From positions 2,170,001-2,234,000 of the forward strand of contig NZ_CP041203.1 of assembly GCF_008033115.1 (NCBI RefSeq): 64,000 nt of DNA, written 5' to 3'. A program made the position numbers and the translations under genes. Position 1 is the first letter of the stretch; the number at the start of each line of letters is the position of its first letter. Of this stretch, positions 3,837 to 63,143 are shown in pieces. A model generated the notes under the pieces. That model had not been told where the DNA came from, made no database searches, and saw only the letters and a list, made by a program, of their open reading frames with translations. This stretch comes from Cellulomonas sp. Y8. GTDB lineage: Bacteria > Actinomycetota > Actinomycetes > Actinomycetales > Cellulomonadaceae.

Positions 3837-4449
3837 GGACGTGACCTCCCCCGGGGGTGCGGAGGCCGCCGACCGCGGCCCCGCGACGGCCCCGGACGCG
3901 GACGACGCCCCGACGTTCGACCCCGCCGTCCCGGTCTCCGAGCAGCTCGAGGTCACGCCGGCCGCCCAGATGGCCCGGCTCTCGCTGGCCCGGTTCCGCT
4001 CGGTGGCCCGGTCGAAGGGCTACCGCCCGGGCCAGGCACCCCGCGCGCGGTCGCCGCTCTCCCCCGCGGAGCTCGGCGGCGCCGGCGTGCACCCGCGCGA
4101 CCCGCTGACCGTGTCCGCGACGATGGCTTCGCTGTTCCGGGACCGCGGCTGGGTGCAGGAGGTGTCGGTCGGCGGGGTCGTCGGCCGGTGGCGCGAGGTC
4201 GTCGGCGACCAGATCGCCGACCACTGCACGCCGGAGACCTTCACCGAGGGGGTGCTGGTGGTCCGGACCGACTCCTCGGCGTGGGCGCAGCAGCTCAAGA
4301 TGCTGGCGCCGCAGCTCGTCCGGCGGATGGCCGAGGACGTGGGCGAGGGCGTCGTGAAGGACGTGCGGGTGCTCGGCCCGCAGGGGCCGGGGTTCGGCAA
4401 GGGCCGTCGCTCCGTGAAGGGCCGCGGGCCCCGGGACACCTGGGGCTGA
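3826..4449 (+). CDS. dciA: DUF721 family protein, DciA-like helicase operator
   Basis: A 207-residue DUF721 protein. DUF721 defines DciA, which supports loading of the replicative helicase DnaB in bacteria lacking DnaC, including mycobacteria. The conserved part is C-terminal (about residues 95-190), with VGRWREVVG near 121 and an [15 protein letters not shown] segment near 150. The first ~90 residues are acidic and low complexity. The GTG at 3826 overlaps the end of recF, indicating translational coupling. Family assignment is firm; the DciA role is inferred from family and position between recF and gyrB. Confidence 0.85.
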
Positions 4450-4536
4450 CCGGACGGCGCTCTCCCCCGCGCCACGACGCGGCGGAGCGCGTCCACAGGC
4501 AGGGCGGTTCGCAGGGGTTTCCGGCGCGGGGCCGGG

Positions 4537-4542
4537 TACACT
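4537..4542 (+). promoter_or_regulatory. Candidate -10 element for gyrB
   Basis: TACACT lies in the 224-bp gap before gyrB and would give a leader of roughly 130 bases. No matching -35 hexamer is evident. Gyrase promoters are often supercoiling-sensitive, but that cannot be read from the sequence. Confidence 0.35.
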
Positions 4543-4673
4543 GGGAATCGACATCTCTGGCGCGTCTGCGCCGGTCCAGGACGCACGATCTCCGTCGTCG
4601 TGGAGTGATCCGCCCTCCCGCGCGGAGGACGGCCGCCTCCGCCGCGTGTGAGAACTGAGGAGCACCACCGCCC

Positions 4674-6728
4674 GTGGCTGACCAGAGCCCCTCCACCGGA
4701 CCTTCCTCCGCCGCACCCGGGGGGACGGTGAACGGGACTCCCGCCTACGACGCGTCCGCGATCACCGTCCTCGAGGGCCTCGAGGCCGTCCGCAAGCGTC
4801 CCGGCATGTACATCGGCTCCACCGGCGAGCGCGGCCTGCACCACCTCGTGTACGAGGTCGTCGACAACTCCGTCGACGAGGCCCTCGCCGGCTACTGCGA
4901 CCACATCGAGGTCACGCTGCTCGCCGACGGCGGCGTCCGCGTCGTCGACAACGGCCGCGGCATCCCCGTCGCGATCCACCCCACCGAGGGCCGGCCGACG
5001 GTCGAGGTCGTCATGACGATCCTGCACGCGGGCGGCAAGTTCGGCGGTGGCGGGTACGCCGTGTCGGGCGGCCTGCACGGCGTCGGCATCTCCGTGGTGA
5101 ACGCGCTCTCCACCAAGGTGCAGACCGTCGTCAAGCGCGACGGGTTCACCTGGGAGCAGGACTTCGCGGACGGCGGCAAGCCGAACGGCGAGCTCCGCCA
5201 GGGCGAGGCCACCGAGGAGACCGGCACCTCGCAGACCTTCTGGGCCGACCCCAGCATCTTCGAGACCGTCGAGTTCGACTTCGAGACGCTGCGCTCCCGG
5301 TTCCAGCAGATGGCGTTCCTCAACAAGGGCCTGCAGATCTCGCTGACCGACGAGCGCCCGCAGCACGGCGACACCGAGGACGAGGTCGCCGGCGACGACA
5401 CCTCCGCCACGGACGCCCCCGCGGCCCGCACCGTCACCTACAAGTACGACGGCGGCCTCGTCGACTACGTGAAGCACCTGAACTCGGCCAAGAAGGTCGA
5501 CCTCGTGCACCCCGAGGTCATCGACTTCGAGGCCGAGGACACCGAGCGCAAGATCTCGGTCGAGGTCGCGATGCAGTGGACCAGCGCCTACTCGGAGTCG
5601 GTGCACACCTACGCGAACACCATCTCCACCACCGAGGGCGGCACGCACGAGGAGGGCTTCCGTGCGGCGATGACCTCCCTGGTCAACCGCTACGCGCGCG
5701 ACAAGGGCATCCTCAAGGAGAAGGACGACAACCTCACCGGCGACGACATCCGCGAGGGCCTGACCGCGGTCGTGTCGATCAAGCTCGGCGAGCCGCAGTT
5801 CGAGGGCCAGACCAAGACCAAGCTGGGCAACACCGAGGCCAAGACCTTCGTGCAGCGCGTGGTCAACGAGCAGTTCGGCGACTGGCTCGACTCGCACCCG
5901 AACGAGGCCAAGGACGTCATCCGCAAGGCCATCCAGGCGTCCCAGGCGCGCCTCGCGGCCCGCAAGGCGCGGGAGGCCACCCGCCGCAAGGGCCTGCTCG
6001 AGTCCAACTCGATGCCCGGGAAGCTGAAGGACTGCCAGTCCAACAACCCCGCCGAGTGCGAGATCTTCATCGTCGAGGGCGACTCCGCCGGCGGTTCGGC
6101 CGTCCGCGGCCGCAACCCGCAGACCCAGGCGATCCTCCCGCTGCGCGGCAAGATCCTCAACGTCGAGCGGGCGCGCCTCGACCGTGCGCTCGGCAACGCC
6201 GAGGTCCAGGCGCTGATCACGGCGTTCGGCACCGGCATCGGCGAGGACTTCGACCTGTCCAAGCTGCGGTACCACAAGATCGTGCTCATGGCCGACGCCG
6301 ACGTCGACGGCCAGCACATCCGGACGCTGCTGCTCACGCTGCTCTACCGGTACATGCCGGAGCTGATCCTCAAGGGCCACGTCTACATGGCGCAGCCCCC
6401 GCTGTTCCGCATCAAGTGGTCGAACGCGCCGCACGACTACGTGTACTCGGACCGCGAGCGGGACGCCGTGCTCGCCGACGGCCAGGCCAACGGCAAGCGG
6501 ATCCCGAAGGACAACGGCATCCAGCGGTACAAGGGTCTGGGCGAGATGGACTACTCGGAGCTGTGGGAGACCACCATGGCGCCGGAGCACCGCACGCTGC
6601 TGCAGGTCACGCTCGACGAGGCGGCCGCGGCGGACGAGATCTTCTCGGTGCTCATGGGCGAGGACGTCGAGTCCCGCCGCTCGTTCATCCAGCGCAACGC
6701 GCGCGACGTCCGGTTCCTGGACATCTGA
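4674..6728 (+). CDS. gyrB: DNA gyrase subunit B
   Basis: ATPase subunit of gyrase, which introduces negative supercoils with GyrA. The N-terminal GHKL ATPase part carries [21 protein letters not shown] and GGLHGVG. The TOPRIM domain begins at EGDSAGGSA with catalytic Glu468 and includes the metal-binding DADVD at 541-545; [10 protein letters not shown] and QRYKGLGEM are also present. The 684-residue length is typical for an actinobacterial GyrB. An acidic Asp/Glu/Thr stretch near residues 235-245 sits in a loop that varies between species. The GTG at 4674 is the start that places the ATPase motifs at usual positions. Confidence 0.98.
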
Positions 6729-16498: not shown

Positions 16499-17122
16499 AT
16501 GAGCCGCATCCTGGTCGTCGACAACTACGACTCGTTCGTCTACACGATCGTCGGGTACCTGGACCAGCTCGGCGCCGAGACCGTCGTCGTGCGGAACGAC
16601 GCCGTGCCGCCGGTCTCCGAGCGCGGGGAGTTCGACGGGGTCCTCGTGTCGCCCGGCCCGGGCACGCCGTCCGAGGCCGGCGCGTCCATGCAGGTGATCC
16701 GCGACTGCGCCGAGTCCGGCACGCCCATGCTCGGGGTCTGCCTCGGGCACCAGGCGCTCGGCGAGGTGTTCGGCGGCACCGTCACCCACGCCCCGGAGCT
16801 CATGCACGGCAAGACCAGCCTGGTGTCCCACGAGGGCCACGGCGTCTTCGAGGGCCTGCCGACGCCGTTCACCGCGACCCGGTACCACTCGCTGGCGGTC
16901 GTGGACGACACGGTCTCGTCGGACCTGGAGGTCACCGCGCGGGCGAACGGCATCATCATGGGCCTGCAGCACCGCACCCTGCCGCTGCACGGCGTCCAGT
17001 TCCACCCGGAGAGCGTCCTGACGGAGGGCGGCCACCGCCTCCTGGCGAACTGGCTGACCCTGACGGGCGAGGCGGACGCGGTCGCCCGCTCCGCGGGCCT
17101 GCACCCCCTGGTCCGCCCGTAG
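16499..17122 (+). CDS. TrpG/PabA-type glutamine amidotransferase
   Basis: Class I amidotransferase subunit that supplies ammonia from glutamine for anthranilate or 4-amino-4-deoxychorismate synthesis. The 207-residue protein starts MSRILVVDNYDSFVYTI. The catalytic triad is visible: Cys81 in GVCLGHQ and His169 with Glu171 in HPES; the oxyanion loop SPGPGTP is near 52. No trpE or pabB is adjacent. This stand-alone copy near crgA and the pkn cluster is typical of Actinobacteria, where it often serves both pathways, so trpG versus pabA is not decided here. Confidence 0.92.
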   Translation: MSRILVVDNYDSFVYTIVGYLDQLGAETVVVRNDAVPPVSERGEFDGVLVSPGPGTPSEAGASMQVIRDCAESGTPMLGVCLGHQALGEVFGGTVTHAPELMHGKTSLVSHEGHGVFEGLPTPFTATRYHSLAVVDDTVSSDLEVTARANGIIMGLQHRTLPLHGVQFHPESVLTEGGHRLLANWLTLTGEADAVARSAGLHPLVRP

Positions 17123-17160
17123 CTCGAGCTGCTCGCCCTCCGCCGCGCGCTGGCTGAGCG

Positions 17161-17229
17161 CCGAGTTCGGTGTGTGCAGCCGAGTTCGGTGGCAGGAAGC
17201 ACCGAACTCGGCTGAAGTCACCGAACTCG
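17161..17229. repeat. Palindromic repeat cluster, left flank (two forward, two inverted arms)
   Basis: Four 12-bp arms at fixed spacing: CCGAGTTCGGTG at 17161 and 17180, then the inverted CACCGAACTCGG at 17200 and CACCGAACTCG at 17219. Start-to-start distances are 19, 20 and 19; spacers are 7, 8 and 7 bp. The cluster can fold as two nested stems or act as a symmetric protein target. A matching cluster lies on the other side of the next gene. Confidence 0.85.
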
Positions 17230-17351
17230 CGGGCGCCGCCGGTGGACGGTTGCGCCGACCGAGCCGTCCACAGGGGTGCGGGACGCGCGCGGGGGCTCCG
17301 ATCTGGGGACCGTGGGGAGGTCCCCGGCGGCCGGGCCGCCAGCCTGGGGGC

Positions 17352-18401
17352 ATGAGCCCCTCGAGCCCCGTCGTGAACCACCCGCCCTCGACCGCCGAGC
17401 GACGGGACCCCGTCGGAGCGACCACCCGCCCCGGGACCGCGCGGCGTCCTGATGACCGGCCGCCCGGTCGCGCGTGGACCGTTGTCGTGCGACCGGCGGT
17501 CCCGGAGGTCGTGCTCGCCGCGGACGTACCGGTGGAGGACCTGCAGCGACGGATCCGTCGCGGGACGCTCGTGCGCGTCGGGCGCGGGGCGTACGCCCCG
17601 TCGTGGGAGGGCCTCGACCCCCACGCCTCCGCGCAGCACCTGCTGCTGTGCCGCGCGGCCGCGGTGCACGCACGCCGGACCGGGGAGCACTGGTTCAGCC
17701 ACACCACCGCAGCCGTGCTCTGGGGGTGCTCCCTGATCACCGTGCCCCGGCACGTGGACGTCACCGGGCCCGTCCGCCGGCGCGCGGTCCCGAAGGATCG
17801 GTCCGACGGCGTGCGTGACCACTTCGCGGTGATGTCGACAGGTGACGTGAGCCGGTCGCTCGCCCTTCCGACCACCTCGCTGGAGCGCACCGTCGTCGAC
17901 TGCGCCGCGACGCTCCCGGGCGCGGAAGGACTCGCCGCCGCCGACTCGGGGCTGCGCGCGGGAGCCGACCCGGCCGAGCTCCGCCGGATCGTCGAGCGTC
18001 GGGCCGGGAGCCCCGGGATCCGGCGCGCGCGCCTCGTGCTCGGCATGGCCGACGCCCGGGCGGAGTCGGTCGGGGAGTCCCGGCTCCGGTGGATCCTCGC
18101 CGCGTCCGGGTCGCCGTGCCCCGATCTGCAGGTGCCCGTCCGGACCGTCGGCGGGTGGCGGTGGGTCGACGTGGGCTGGCCGGAGGAGCGGGTGGCGGTG
18201 GAGTTCGACGGCCGCGTGAAGTACGGCACGGACGGCTGTGCGGCAGCCGACGCGCTGTTCCAGGAGAAGCGACGGCAGCACGCGATCGAGGACGAGGGCT
18301 GGACGGTCCTCCGCGTCACCTGGCGTGACCTGGACCGACCAGCAGAGGTGGTGCAGCGCGTCCGCCGGGCTCTGCGATCCGCCCGCCGACGGCGCGGTTG
18401 A
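17352..18401 (+). CDS. AbiEi-like wHTH plus DUF559-type nuclease-fold protein
   Basis: A 349-residue protein. Residues about 45-80 resemble the AbiEi antitoxin-type winged helix (VPVEDLQRRIRRGTLVRVGRGAYAP), followed by the common HTTAAVLWG and LERTVVDCAA segments. The C-terminal ~90 residues resemble DUF559/Vsr-like restriction-endonuclease folds: VDVGW with Asp273, VEFDG with Glu284 and Asp286, then QEKRRQHAIEDEGWTVLRVTW. An acidic set of this type could be a metal-dependent nuclease site. No toxin gene is adjacent, so a classic type IV toxin-antitoxin role is not supported. It is flanked on both sides by matched repeat clusters. The ATG at 17352 begins the region that resembles relatives. 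Confidence 0.75.
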   Translation: MSPSSPVVNHPPSTAERRDPVGATTRPGTARRPDDRPPGRAWTVVVRPAVPEVVLAADVPVEDLQRRIRRGTLVRVGRGAYAPSWEGLDPHASAQHLLLCRAAAVHARRTGEHWFSHTTAAVLWGCSLITVPRHVDVTGPVRRRAVPKDRSDGVRDHFAVMSTGDVSRSLALPTTSLERTVVDCAATLPGAEGLAAADSGLRAGADPAELRRIVERRAGSPGIRRARLVLGMADARAESVGESRLRWILAASGSPCPDLQVPVRTVGGWRWVDVGWPEERVAVEFDGRVKYGTDGCAAADALFQEKRRQHAIEDEGWTVLRVTWRDLDRPAEVVQRVRRALRSARRRRG

Positions 18402-18423
18402 CCCGGCCCGCTCACGGGTCCTC

Positions 18424-18493
18424 GTCGGTTCGGTGGTTCTCGCCCGGTTCGGTGGTTGCAGGCACCGAACTCGGCTGGGGGTACCGAACTCGT
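18424..18493. repeat. Palindromic repeat cluster, right flank (two forward, two inverted arms)
   Basis: Arms at 18424 (GTCGGTTCGGTG), 18443 (CCCGGTTCGGTG), 18463 (CACCGAACTCGG) and 18482 (TACCGAACTCGT). Start-to-start spacing is 19, 20 and 19, exactly as in the left-flank cluster. It begins 22 bases after the stop of the AbiEi/DUF559-like gene. The inverted arms are better preserved than the forward ones. Confidence 0.85.
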
Positions 18494-18530
18494 CGGGGTA
18501 GCGGCGCAGGCAGGCGGACCGGGGAGACGA

Positions 18531-18569
18531 CGCGGGCCCCGATCCGCCCGGAGGGGATCGGGGCCCGCG
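18531..18569. terminator. Strong hairpin terminator after pknB
   Basis: A 15-bp perfect stem, CGCGGGCCCCGATCC with GGATCGGGGCCCGCG, and a 9-base loop, located 20 bp beyond the pknB stop codon. It lies between convergent genes and probably ends the long minus-strand pkn operon. Confidence 0.8.
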
Positions 18570-18588
18570 CGGAGCCGGGTGTCGGTGC

Positions 18589-20577
18589 TCAGCCGCTGTT
18601 GCCGCCGTTGCCCTGGTTGCCGCCCGTCGGGTTCGGGCCCGAGGACAGGGTCAGGGTGACCGTGCTGTTGAGCGGGACCGTCGAGCCCGCGCGCGGGTCG
18701 GACGACAGGACCGTCCCGGCCGGCTGGTTGGACGGGTCGTCGGAGGACACGGCGTCGACCTGGAGGCCGAGGCCCTGGAGCTGCGCGGTGGCGTCCGCCT
18801 CGGACTTGCCGACGATGTCGTTCGGGATCGTGACGGTCGTCGGGGCGGTGGCGATCACGAGGTTCACCGTCGTGCCCTGCGGCACGAGGCCCGCGGCCCG
18901 GTCCTGCCGGATCACGGTGCCGGGGGCGACGTCCGCGCTCTCCTCGGACGAGGTGTTGGCCGTCAGCTTGAGGCCGTTCAGCGTCTGCTTCGCGGCGTCC
19001 TCGGTCTGACCGGCGAGGTCCGGGAGCTGGACGAGTCCCGAGGAGATCACGAGCGTCACCGACGACCCCTCGGCGACCGACTGCGTCGCGGCGGGCTCGG
19101 TGCCCAGCGCCCGTCCCTCGGGCTGCGCGGGGTTGTCGTCCTCGCGGACGGTGCCTACGACCAGCCCCGCGTCGGTGAGCTGCTGGCGCGCCTGGTCCTG
19201 GGTCAGCCCGGAGACGTCCGGCACCGTGACGGCGTTCGGCCCGGTCGAGACCCACATCGTGACCGAGGAGCCGTCCTCGGCCTCCGTGCCGCCGGCCGGG
19301 TCGGTGCGGGTGACCGAGCCCTCGGGCACGTCGGCGCTGGTCTCGGCCTGCCGGTCCACCTCGAAGCCCGCGCCGGTCAGCGCCGTGGTCGCGTCCGCCT
19401 CGGCCTGACCGGTGACGGTCGGCACGGGGACCATGACGACGTCCGGCTCCCGGTCCTGCGTCAGCAGCCAGATGAGGCCGCCCACGGCGAGGACCGCGAT
19501 CACGCTGAGCGTGATCCACAGCCACCGCTTGGACTTCTTCTCCTCGTCCGGCTCCTCGTCGGTCTGCGCGGGCAGCACCGACGTGCCGGGGCCGGTGGGC
19601 GCCCACGCGGGGGCGTCGCCGGGCATCACCTGGGTCGCGGCCGCGTCGGGCGCGAGCACCTGCGTCGCGGCACCGGCGCCCAGCGCCGCGGCGGCCACGG
19701 CGGGCGCGGACACGGCACCGCCGCGGGCGGCGGCCTCGAGGTCGGCGCGGAACTCGGCGGCGGACGAGTAGCGGGCGTCCCGCTCCTTGGCCAGCGCCTT
19801 CGCCGTGATCCGGTCGAGCACCTCGGGCACGTCGGAGGCGACCGAGGACGGGGCGGGGGCGATCTCACGGACGTGCTGGTAGGCGACGGCCACGGGGGAG
19901 TCGCCGATGAACGGCGGTCGGCCGGTCAGCAGCTCGAACAGCAGGCAGCCGGCCGAGTACAGGTCGGAGCGGGCGTCGACGGTCTCGCCGCGGGCCTGCT
20001 CGGGCGACAGGTACTGCGCGGTGCCGATGACGGCCTGCGTCTGCGTCATGGTGGCCGCGGAGTCGGCGACGGCGCGCGCGATGCCGAAGTCCATCACCTT
20101 GACGGCACCGGTCGGCGTCAGCATGACGTTCGCCGGCTTGATGTCGCGGTGCACGATGCCCGCGTGGTGGGAGTACTCGAGCGCCGACAGCACGCCGGCG
20201 GTGATCTCGATGGCCTCCTCGATCGGCACGGCCTGGCCGTCGCGGAGGATGTCGCGGACCGTGTGGCCCTCGACGTACTCCATGACGATGAACGGCACGT
20301 GCGCGGTCGCGCCCGTCGGCTCGGTGTACACGTCCTCGCCGGTGTCGTACACGGCGACGATGGACGGGTGGTTGAGGCCTGCCGCGGCCTGCGCCTCGCG
20401 GCGGAACCGCGCCTGGAACGACGGGTCGCGCGCGAGGTCGGAGCGCAGGATCTTGATCGCCACGGTGCGCCCGAGGCGCGCGTCGTGCCCGATGTGCACC
20501 TCGGCCATGCCACCACGGCCGATGAGCTCACCGACCTCGTACCGTCCGGCGAGGATCCGGGATCCGTCGTCCACCAC
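18589..20577 (-). CDS. pknB: Serine/threonine protein kinase PknB with PASTA repeats
   Basis: Membrane receptor kinase that senses muropeptides or lipid II and controls cell-wall synthesis and division. The kinase domain spans about residues 12-275, with Lys42 in VAIK, the catalytic loop HRDIKPAN (Asp145) and a DFG motif. A Pro/Ala-rich juxtamembrane region follows, then one helix near 350-372 (WLWITLSVIAVLAVGGLIWLL), and four extracytoplasmic PASTA repeats to the end. The 662-residue length is typical. The GTG start overlaps the pknA stop by one base, and pknB is last in the operon. Confidence 0.97.
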   Translation of the reverse strand: MVDDGSRILAGRYEVGELIGRGGMAEVHIGHDARLGRTVAIKILRSDLARDPSFQARFRREAQAAAGLNHPSIVAVYDTGEDVYTEPTGATAHVPFIVMEYVEGHTVRDILRDGQAVPIEEAIEITAGVLSALEYSHHAGIVHRDIKPANVMLTPTGAVKVMDFGIARAVADSAATMTQTQAVIGTAQYLSPEQARGETVDARSDLYSAGCLLFELLTGRPPFIGDSPVAVAYQHVREIAPAPSSVASDVPEVLDRITAKALAKERDARYSSAAEFRADLEAAARGGAVSAPAVAAAALGAGAATQVLAPDAAATQVMPGDAPAWAPTGPGTSVLPAQTDEEPDEEKKSKRWLWITLSVIAVLAVGGLIWLLTQDREPDVVMVPVPTVTGQAEADATTALTGAGFEVDRQAETSADVPEGSVTRTDPAGGTEAEDGSSVTMWVSTGPNAVTVPDVSGLTQDQARQQLTDAGLVVGTVREDDNPAQPEGRALGTEPAATQSVAEGSSVTLVISSGLVQLPDLAGQTEDAAKQTLNGLKLTANTSSEESADVAPGTVIRQDRAAGLVPQGTTVNLVIATAPTTVTIPNDIVGKSEADATAQLQGLGLQVDAVSSDDPSNQPAGTVLSSDPRAGSTVPLNSTVTLTLSSGPNPTGGNQGNGGNSG

Positions 20578-62999: not shown

Positions 63000-63088
63000 G
63001 CGAGCGCGGCAGCGCGCGGCGAGCGCGGTGGCTGGAGGTGCCGCGCTCGGTTGGAGGTGCCGCGCTCGGCGCGAGGTGCCGCGCTCGG
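63000..63088. repeat. Palindromic repeat cluster, third copy with GC-changed arms
   Basis: Five arms: forward GCGAGCGCGGCA at 63000 and GCGAGCGCGGTG at 63019, then inverted TGCCGCGCTCGG at 63039, 63058 and 63077. Start-to-start distances are 19, 20, 19 and 19, matching the clusters at 17.2 and 18.4 kb, with spacers of 7, 8, 7 and 7. The variable arm core is GC/GC where the other clusters have TT/AA, so pairing is conserved. No nuclease-like gene is adjacent; the 284-bp gap holds no gene. Confidence 0.8.
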
Positions 63089-63143
63089 CGCGCGCCCGGG
63101 CGCCCCGGCGCCGCGGGGCGGGCGCGCTGGGCGCGGGCCGGGG

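Follow-up and report, generated by a model that had tools for sequence, protein, structure and literature searches.

A 1.3-kb unit consisting of a gene between two four-arm repeat clusters was analysed in the genome of Cellulomonas sp. Y8; the window is the whole 64,000-nucleotide stretch of DNA that was studied. Comparison with homologous loci revealed that each gene of this family has its own repeat flavour, common to both sides of the gene, and this pairing of gene and repeat is well supported. Many soil actinobacteria have a small gene of this kind, framed by two copies of a four-arm repeat that recurs elsewhere in the genome. It is fairly likely that cluster, gene and cluster together form a small genetic element and that its protein recognises the dispersed repeat cognate to it, making the element an analogue of the REPtrons in which a metal-dependent nuclease replaces the HuH transposase. 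The features of the unit and its surroundings are summarized in Table 1.

Table 1. Coordinates of the features at the analysed site (positions in the window)
Feature	Position	Strand	Details
Left four-arm cluster	17161..17230	.	Arms 17161, 17180 (forward), 17200, 17219 (inverted); geometry score 69/72, top-scoring place of the 64-kb window; ssDNA fold z -9.7
AbiEi-like DNA-binding protein fused to Vsr/DUF559/MTES_1575-like nuclease domain (predicted)	17352..18401	+	ORF list, Pfam, PADLOC, AlphaFold2, PDB comparison
AbiEi-like part	17502..18053	+	Residues 18-201 of the 316-residue piece
Nuclease part	18066..18389	+	Residues 206-313 of the 316-residue piece
Right four-arm cluster	18424..18493	.	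Arms 18424, 18443 (forward), 18463, 18482 (inverted); more decayed; geometry score 53, third in the 64-kb window; ssDNA fold z -5.0
Terminator-like hairpin	18531..18569	.	Between the unit and pknB; 15-bp perfect inverted repeat; resembles the hairpins of relatives' empty pabA-pknB sites

The clusters were evaluated with a sequence-independent geometry score, in which six pairwise arm matches are summed to a maximum of 72 and for which the 99.99% quantile of the 64-kb window is 44. Both of the clusters that the first-pass annotation had placed on either side of the gene were found, with arm starts 19, 20 and 19 apart. The mismatches of the right cluster to CCGAGTTCGGTG numbered 4, 2, 0 and 2 for the arms at 18424, 18443, 18463 and 18482, respectively. 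The proposal that the arms lie on the same face of the helix holds approximately, as 19-20 bp equal about 1.8-1.9 turns. The second-best score of the window (62) was given by a cluster at 63000 with other arms; the stretch 63000-63090 carries this further four-arm cluster plus an extra arm, in the flavour GAGCGCGG of the paralogue L013 (gene G000:C1:1186458-1187318).

The gene start (ATG 17352) was inferred, with homology being clear from about position 17490. The protein is predicted to combine an AbiEi-type DNA binder with a Vsr/I-Bth0305I-type nuclease having conserved catalytic residues. Its AlphaFold2 model showed a pLDDT of 93.2; the DNA-binding and middle parts matched AbiEi both by profile and by fold, and comparison of the predicted structure with the PDB gave the homing endonuclease I-Bth0305I as the closest fold for the C-terminal domain. 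A sequence search of solved structures with the protein returned nothing useful. The catalytic domain of the nuclease part is of the Vsr/EDxHD type. The residues Asp273, Glu284 and Asp286 highlighted by the first-pass annotation are consistent with the ATG 17352 start and correspond to D240, E251 and D253 in the 316-residue numbering; these three were invariant across 76 homologues, as was K257 in the nuclease part, and E209 was nearly so. The identity of a HuH Y1 transposase was ruled out by the profiles and the fold, which are those of AbiEi plus a Vsr-like nuclease. There was no adjacent DUF1814 (AbiEii) toxin gene, the neighbours being convergent pknB downstream and pabA upstream. Plasmid or phage cargo was also rejected, since the matches were distant ones of 31-34% identity, found in 3 of 72,556 plasmid records and, again at 31-34%, in 1 of 50,697 phage records.

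The surroundings of homologous genes were examined in a sample of 200 family genomes, 155 of which had a protein match at E 1e-20. The named loci are the best 80 of at least 486 confirmed candidates and come from Cellulomonas, Cellulosimicrobium, Oerskovia, Sanguibacter, Isoptericola, Arthrobacter, Actinotalea and others; some of the loci with G handles are the same places as named ones (e.g. L059 = L090, L050 = L079). The scan used geometry alone and allowed steps of 17-23 bp. The threshold was 53, 54 (near/far density count) or 56 (geometry comparison, asymmetric steps) depending on the scan, and some single cluster calls near threshold may be chance. The flanking clusters of homologous genes in other Micrococcales shared the same design, two forward and two inverted arms at a 19- or 20-bp step, and differed in sequence, the flavours including GATAGGAC, GGTCGTCT, TCGCCGGAA, GATCGACG, TAGAAC and more. 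When 117 symmetric geometries were compared, the counts near the gene peaked at 19-even-19 (up to 40), followed by 20-odd-20 (up to 14), against a median of 0.

The clusters were concentrated at the gene. Among the best 80 of at least 486 loci, 89 clusters lay within 600 bp of the gene (94 kb) versus 20 beyond 1 kb (446 kb), so the clusters do sit beside this gene family more often than beside other genes. The difference persisted in intergenic DNA only, with 2.04 clusters per kb near the gene versus 0.40 far from it. For neighbour genes more than 620 bp from the locus end, far clusters on both sides were seen in 1 of 319 genes and, counting any cluster, in 7 of 319. The symmetric-type scan at threshold 54 gave 33 both-sided, 21 one-sided and 26 cluster-free loci out of these 80. 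Allowing asymmetric steps added L090 and L091 as both-sided, so that 35 of the 80 carried clusters on both sides and 56 on at least one; these totals are the threshold-54 results (33 and 54) plus the two added loci, and the asymmetric scan alone (threshold 56) gave 29 and 51. No cluster was found in 24 of the best 80 loci at the thresholds used. Homologues consistently devoid of flanking repeats would have spoken against the link, and the 56 flanked loci show that this is not the pattern of the family. Grouped by chromosomal position, the 80 loci represent 31 sites; clusters occurred at 26 of these, and 17 included a both-sided locus.

Where two full clusters were lacking, the flanks of many loci still had longer words in common than unrelated flanks had (mean 15.7 vs 10.1). 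One such locus from Luteimicrobium (L117) showed no standard cluster around 4001-4891, yet a 39-nt word was common to both flanks, and another repeat arrangement may exist. A separate observation concerns one conserved chromosomal site in several genera (L100, L106, L107, L109, L111, L119, L130, L131, L135 and L146), at which the steps are 19, 20 or 21 bp and the arms differ, providing a natural series for the study of specificity change.

The repeat flavours were compared over units of 17 nt read from the dyad centre. The identity between left and right units was 85% (0.854) within a locus and 50% between loci, while 20,000 permutations reached 0.608 at most. For 28 of 33 left clusters, the best match was the right cluster of the same locus. 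When pairs at one syntenic site were compared, 23 of 27 showed a greater likeness between left and right than between orthologous positions in relatives, and it follows that the two ends of a locus change together. Unit similarity stayed at the background of 0.46-0.48 below 60% protein identity and was 0.69-0.87 above it. The rank correlations between protein identity and unit similarity were weak (0.11-0.23) with no clear domain signal, hence the specificity residues cannot be named.

Abundance of a flavour in a genome also largely followed the gene. Only four of the 200 family genomes had 15 or more TCGGTG cores (36, 22, 17 and 16 in G000, G151, G168 and G183), and in each of them a homologue carries the TCGGTG flavour in both flanks, in G183 as the near variant GATCGGyG. 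G151 belongs to another genus and has a 45% identical protein with nearly the same arm (GAGTTCGGTG); its gene flanks (L165) and six solo copies (L215-L220) share the same unusual asymmetric 19/20 step. The genomes G192, G187, G190, G194 and G020 had 10-14 TCGGTG cores each and, among the flanks examined, no gene flanked by that flavour. Cross-flavour patterns were searched in the 46 genomes behind the named loci. TAGAAC cores occurred in four of the 46: ten in G225 (two being the flanks of its gene), three in G217, two in G231 and one in G254. The genes of G225, G217 and G231 carry the TAGAAC flavour on at least one side; G229 has this flavour at its gene, yet no exact core. Six Arthrobacter genomes had 3-8 TCGCCGG cores each, compared with no more than 2 in any of the 40 remaining genomes. 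In five of these six the gene carries the TCGCCGG flavour, no cluster was found at the gene of the sixth (G243), and G246 combines TCGCCGG flanks with a single core. The link between protein and repeat drawn in the first-pass annotation is thus strongly supported by the cognate clusters at homologues and by the flavour-matched copies, for three flavours and with some exceptions.

A chance arrangement, in which the solo clusters were scattered by some other mechanism and the pair beside the gene is coincidental, fits the fact that the 28 solo clusters of the Y8 genome adjoin unrelated genes. It is contradicted at the family level by the enrichment near the gene, by the cognate flavours and by clusters at 26 of the 31 chromosomal sites, and it is considered exceedingly improbable.

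The dispersal of the repeat in the Y8 genome was then described from the core TCGGTG-N8-CACCGA, which occurred 36 times in the 4.48-Mb single-contig genome, while the reversed control gave 0 (spacers N7-N9 were allowed and all were N8). These 36 cores comprise 28 solo clusters, the two flanks of the window gene and six in-gene matches without outer arms; the latter (L018, L021, L028, L037, L042 and L046) were dropped from the 34 cluster-centred loci for having no flanking arms. Exactly two plus two arms were present in 23 of the 30 clusters, and the consensus of 123 arms was CCGAGnTCGGTG, where n is A, G or T. The first-pass annotation had held that clusters scattered through the genome with no link to the gene family would refute its reading; the scatter was seen, the absence of a link was not.

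Five homologues are present in the Y8 genome. The window gene, L013 and L014 each have their own flavour on both sides and L012 has it on one side, whereas no cluster was found at the flanks of the paralogue L015. The L013 flavour (GAGCGCGG-N12-CCGCGCTC) occurred nine times in the genome, once at window position 63021, and it was counted, as a repeat irrespective of the genes, in 20 of 60 same-genus genomes with controls of 0. As a side observation, single arms of a further flavour, GAGATAGGaC, lie to the right of the central cluster in L036 and L044, and the same flavour borders the Cellulosimicrobium cellulans DE0111 orthologue (L082).

The position of the solo clusters relative to genes was obtained with a home-made codon-usage predictor, which also underlies the comparison of gene and solo sites and the neighbour-gene and intergenic densities. 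Twenty of the 28 solo clusters lay between convergent genes, six between codirectional and one between divergent genes, and one was inside a predicted gene. The background was 33 convergent gaps out of 159 of at least 60 bp in the same sequence, a set in which some loci overlap and the cluster gaps are counted too. Gene and solo clusters share the same kind of 3'-3' site.

This placement bears on the explanation by autoregulation only, in which the clusters are AbiEi-type operators of the own gene, perhaps with a regulon, and nothing is mobile. As described in PMC7319586, the promoters of AbiEi and Rv2827c contain 23-bp inverted repeats to which the respective protein binds, four of them in the case of Rv2827c. 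The left cluster is likewise upstream of the gene, and the behaviour of the units is closer to that of duplex sequence than to that of paired stems. Against these points, 35 of the best 80 of at least 486 loci have another cognate cluster beyond the stop codon, the sites between convergent genes are a poor place for operators, and solo clusters are gained and lost between relatives. Autoregulation alone is accordingly judged to be unlikely, although it is the strongest of the competing explanations, and an operator serving the window gene alone was rejected. Autoregulation probably coexists with the putative spreading of the repeat.

The history of the unit was traced at its chromosomal site between the convergent genes pabA and pknB. 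A kinase match was present in 58 of 60 same-genus genomes, and the pabA-pknB loci were fetched from 30 of the 58. Six of the 30 sites carry the unit; in the other 24, pabA is nearby and both the gene and the cluster (searched by the symmetric geometry) are missing, so the empty sites looked for in related strains do exist. Eleven of them were inspected and had a gap of about 30-208 bp with a terminator-like hairpin in most; the junction in the window keeps a hairpin of this kind (Table 1). Since 24 of 30 sites have neither gene nor cluster, the unit is most simply a lineage-specific insertion, loss elsewhere being the alternative. Within each site, the gene has been inherited in place. Solo clusters were present in one relative and absent from another in three comparisons (L109 vs L146, L102 vs L108 and L132 vs L121). 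No target duplication was visible at the insertion and solo sites inspected, where the flanks have diverged. Inheritance in place, the missing target duplication and the cluster-free empty sites count against the proposed element, as do the loci with no cluster and the genomes whose cores and flanks disagree. The flanks were mirror images wherever both were asymmetric (L165, L090 (= L059), L091, L056 and L057), which makes five distinct loci of probably two lineages; symmetric clusters cannot reveal this orientation. Mirror-image flanks resemble what terminal inverted repeats would give. The first-pass suggestion of a mobile unit stands as far as past insertion and the presence or absence of solo clusters between relatives carry it, these two being the whole of its support.

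A homing gene would account for some of these features: the nuclease would cut solo clusters, which are then vacant homing sites, and repair would copy the gene in. The fold of the C-terminal domain and the common 3'-3' setting of gene and solo clusters agree with it. However, the cluster was found in 0 of the 24 empty pabA-pknB sites (symmetric geometry), and homing into a solo cluster therefore does not explain the unit at this junction; the gene is enclosed by two complete clusters instead of interrupting one, and a single full unit of the window flavour stands against 28 solo clusters in the genome. Homing is consequently regarded as improbable.

The folding of the clusters was analysed with respect to termination, as they could be bidirectional terminators or mRNA 3'-end structures that flank the gene by coincidence. 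Between convergent genes, solo clusters lie shortly past the stop codons, and the single-strand hairpins were strong in six clusters tested (ssDNA folding, z -5.0 to -14.6). The outer arms of the named loci showed slightly more nested agreement (0.55 vs 0.41-0.43 otherwise, 305 columns), and the inner arms of the Y8 genome also somewhat more. The linkers, in contrast, had no covariation in the Y8 genome (p 0.59) and barely any elsewhere (0.75 vs 0.69, p 0.058), and base pairing as the main constraint was rejected on this ground. Rfam gave nothing above the gathering score for window positions 16800-18900, where seven sub-threshold matches of the microRNA hairpin type appeared, and a known RNA family was rejected as the identity of the clusters. 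Moreover, a separate hairpin is kept at the pabA-pknB junction of the window, and termination leaves the gene-specific flavours on both sides and the fixed 19/20-bp step unexplained. The terminator explanation is thus very improbable. Recognition of the cluster as a duplex is likelier, and a role for the hairpin may exist as well.

The mechanism suggested for the cognate element is as follows. By analogy with the promoter binding of AbiEi and Rv2827c, the AbiEi part should read the units of about 19 bp as double-stranded half-sites, with several protomers per cluster. The upstream cluster would also repress the own gene, as AbiEi does. Less certainly, the nuclease part may cut at or near the clusters, and repair or copying after the cut might spread, correct or retain them, so that all copies would track the specificity of the protein. 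Taken further, the system could be a new class of repeat-spreading system, in which an AbiEi-type repressor with a Vsr/homing-type nuclease recognises a four-arm dyad of 19- or 20-bp step and disseminates it to 3'-3' junctions, the repeat having been re-specified many times to give many orthogonal pairs across Micrococcales; the chances of this broader reading are about even.

If the proposed recognition is true, the interspersed palindromes found in high-GC actinobacteria are served by a protein of their own that is not related to REP transposases, and the family labelled AbiEi, MTES_1575 or DUF559 in profile libraries gains a concrete DNA substrate. The gene-specific flavours offer ready sets of protein and DNA target with which to trace a change in specificity that is matched at every site of the genome. 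They also open a direct approach to the question of how repeats could be spread by a nuclease when no classical transposase is involved.

Several known systems resemble the window system in part. The insertion sequences and their short non-autonomous derivatives share the mirror-image flanks of the asymmetric loci and the short non-coding copies; the window system differs in that no transposase was recognised, no target duplication was seen and one full unit of the window flavour is present in its genome. The AbiE type IV toxin-antitoxin systems (AbiEi / Rv2827c) have the AbiEi-type fold and inverted repeats upstream of their own gene. The window gene, however, has no adjacent toxin gene and is therefore not part of an AbiE pair; it has an extra nuclease domain, and its clusters are also downstream and dispersed. 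The Vsr-type nucleases and I-Bth0305I share the C-terminal fold and the conserved acidic residues, although the window nuclease is fused to an AbiEi-type binder. Homing of the I-Bth0305I type differs further, as the window gene lies between repeats and not in an intron or intein, and the lack of the target at the empty pabA-pknB sites means that it is not a classical homing gene.

The closest likeness is to the REPtrons. In these, as outlined in PMC8266576, a gene is flanked by cognate palindromic repeats with more intergenic copies, the repeat abundance is linked to the gene, gene and repeat co-vary, and the gene is mostly inherited in place. The window system also has cognate flanking repeats, dispersed intergenic copies, a repeat abundance linked to the gene, gene-repeat co-variation and a gene mostly inherited in place. 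It differs in its protein, where AbiEi and a Vsr-like nuclease take the place of the HuH enzyme, and in its repeat, whose four arms form a dyad of 19- or 20-bp step and which is present in tens of copies and not hundreds. A GTAG-type tetranucleotide before the repeat was absent from the arms of the Y8 clusters inspected. Without the HuH protein and the GTAG motif, the window system is not a REPtron, and the analogy with REP sequences and RAYT transposases drawn in the first-pass annotation applies to the layout (flanking cognate palindromes, scattered intergenic copies, co-variation) and fails for the protein. Searches of the open-access literature brought up no paper describing the system in its title or abstract. 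We rate the repeat-protein system as categorically new with a familiar logic; on a stricter view, it could be seen as a further variation on the REP theme.
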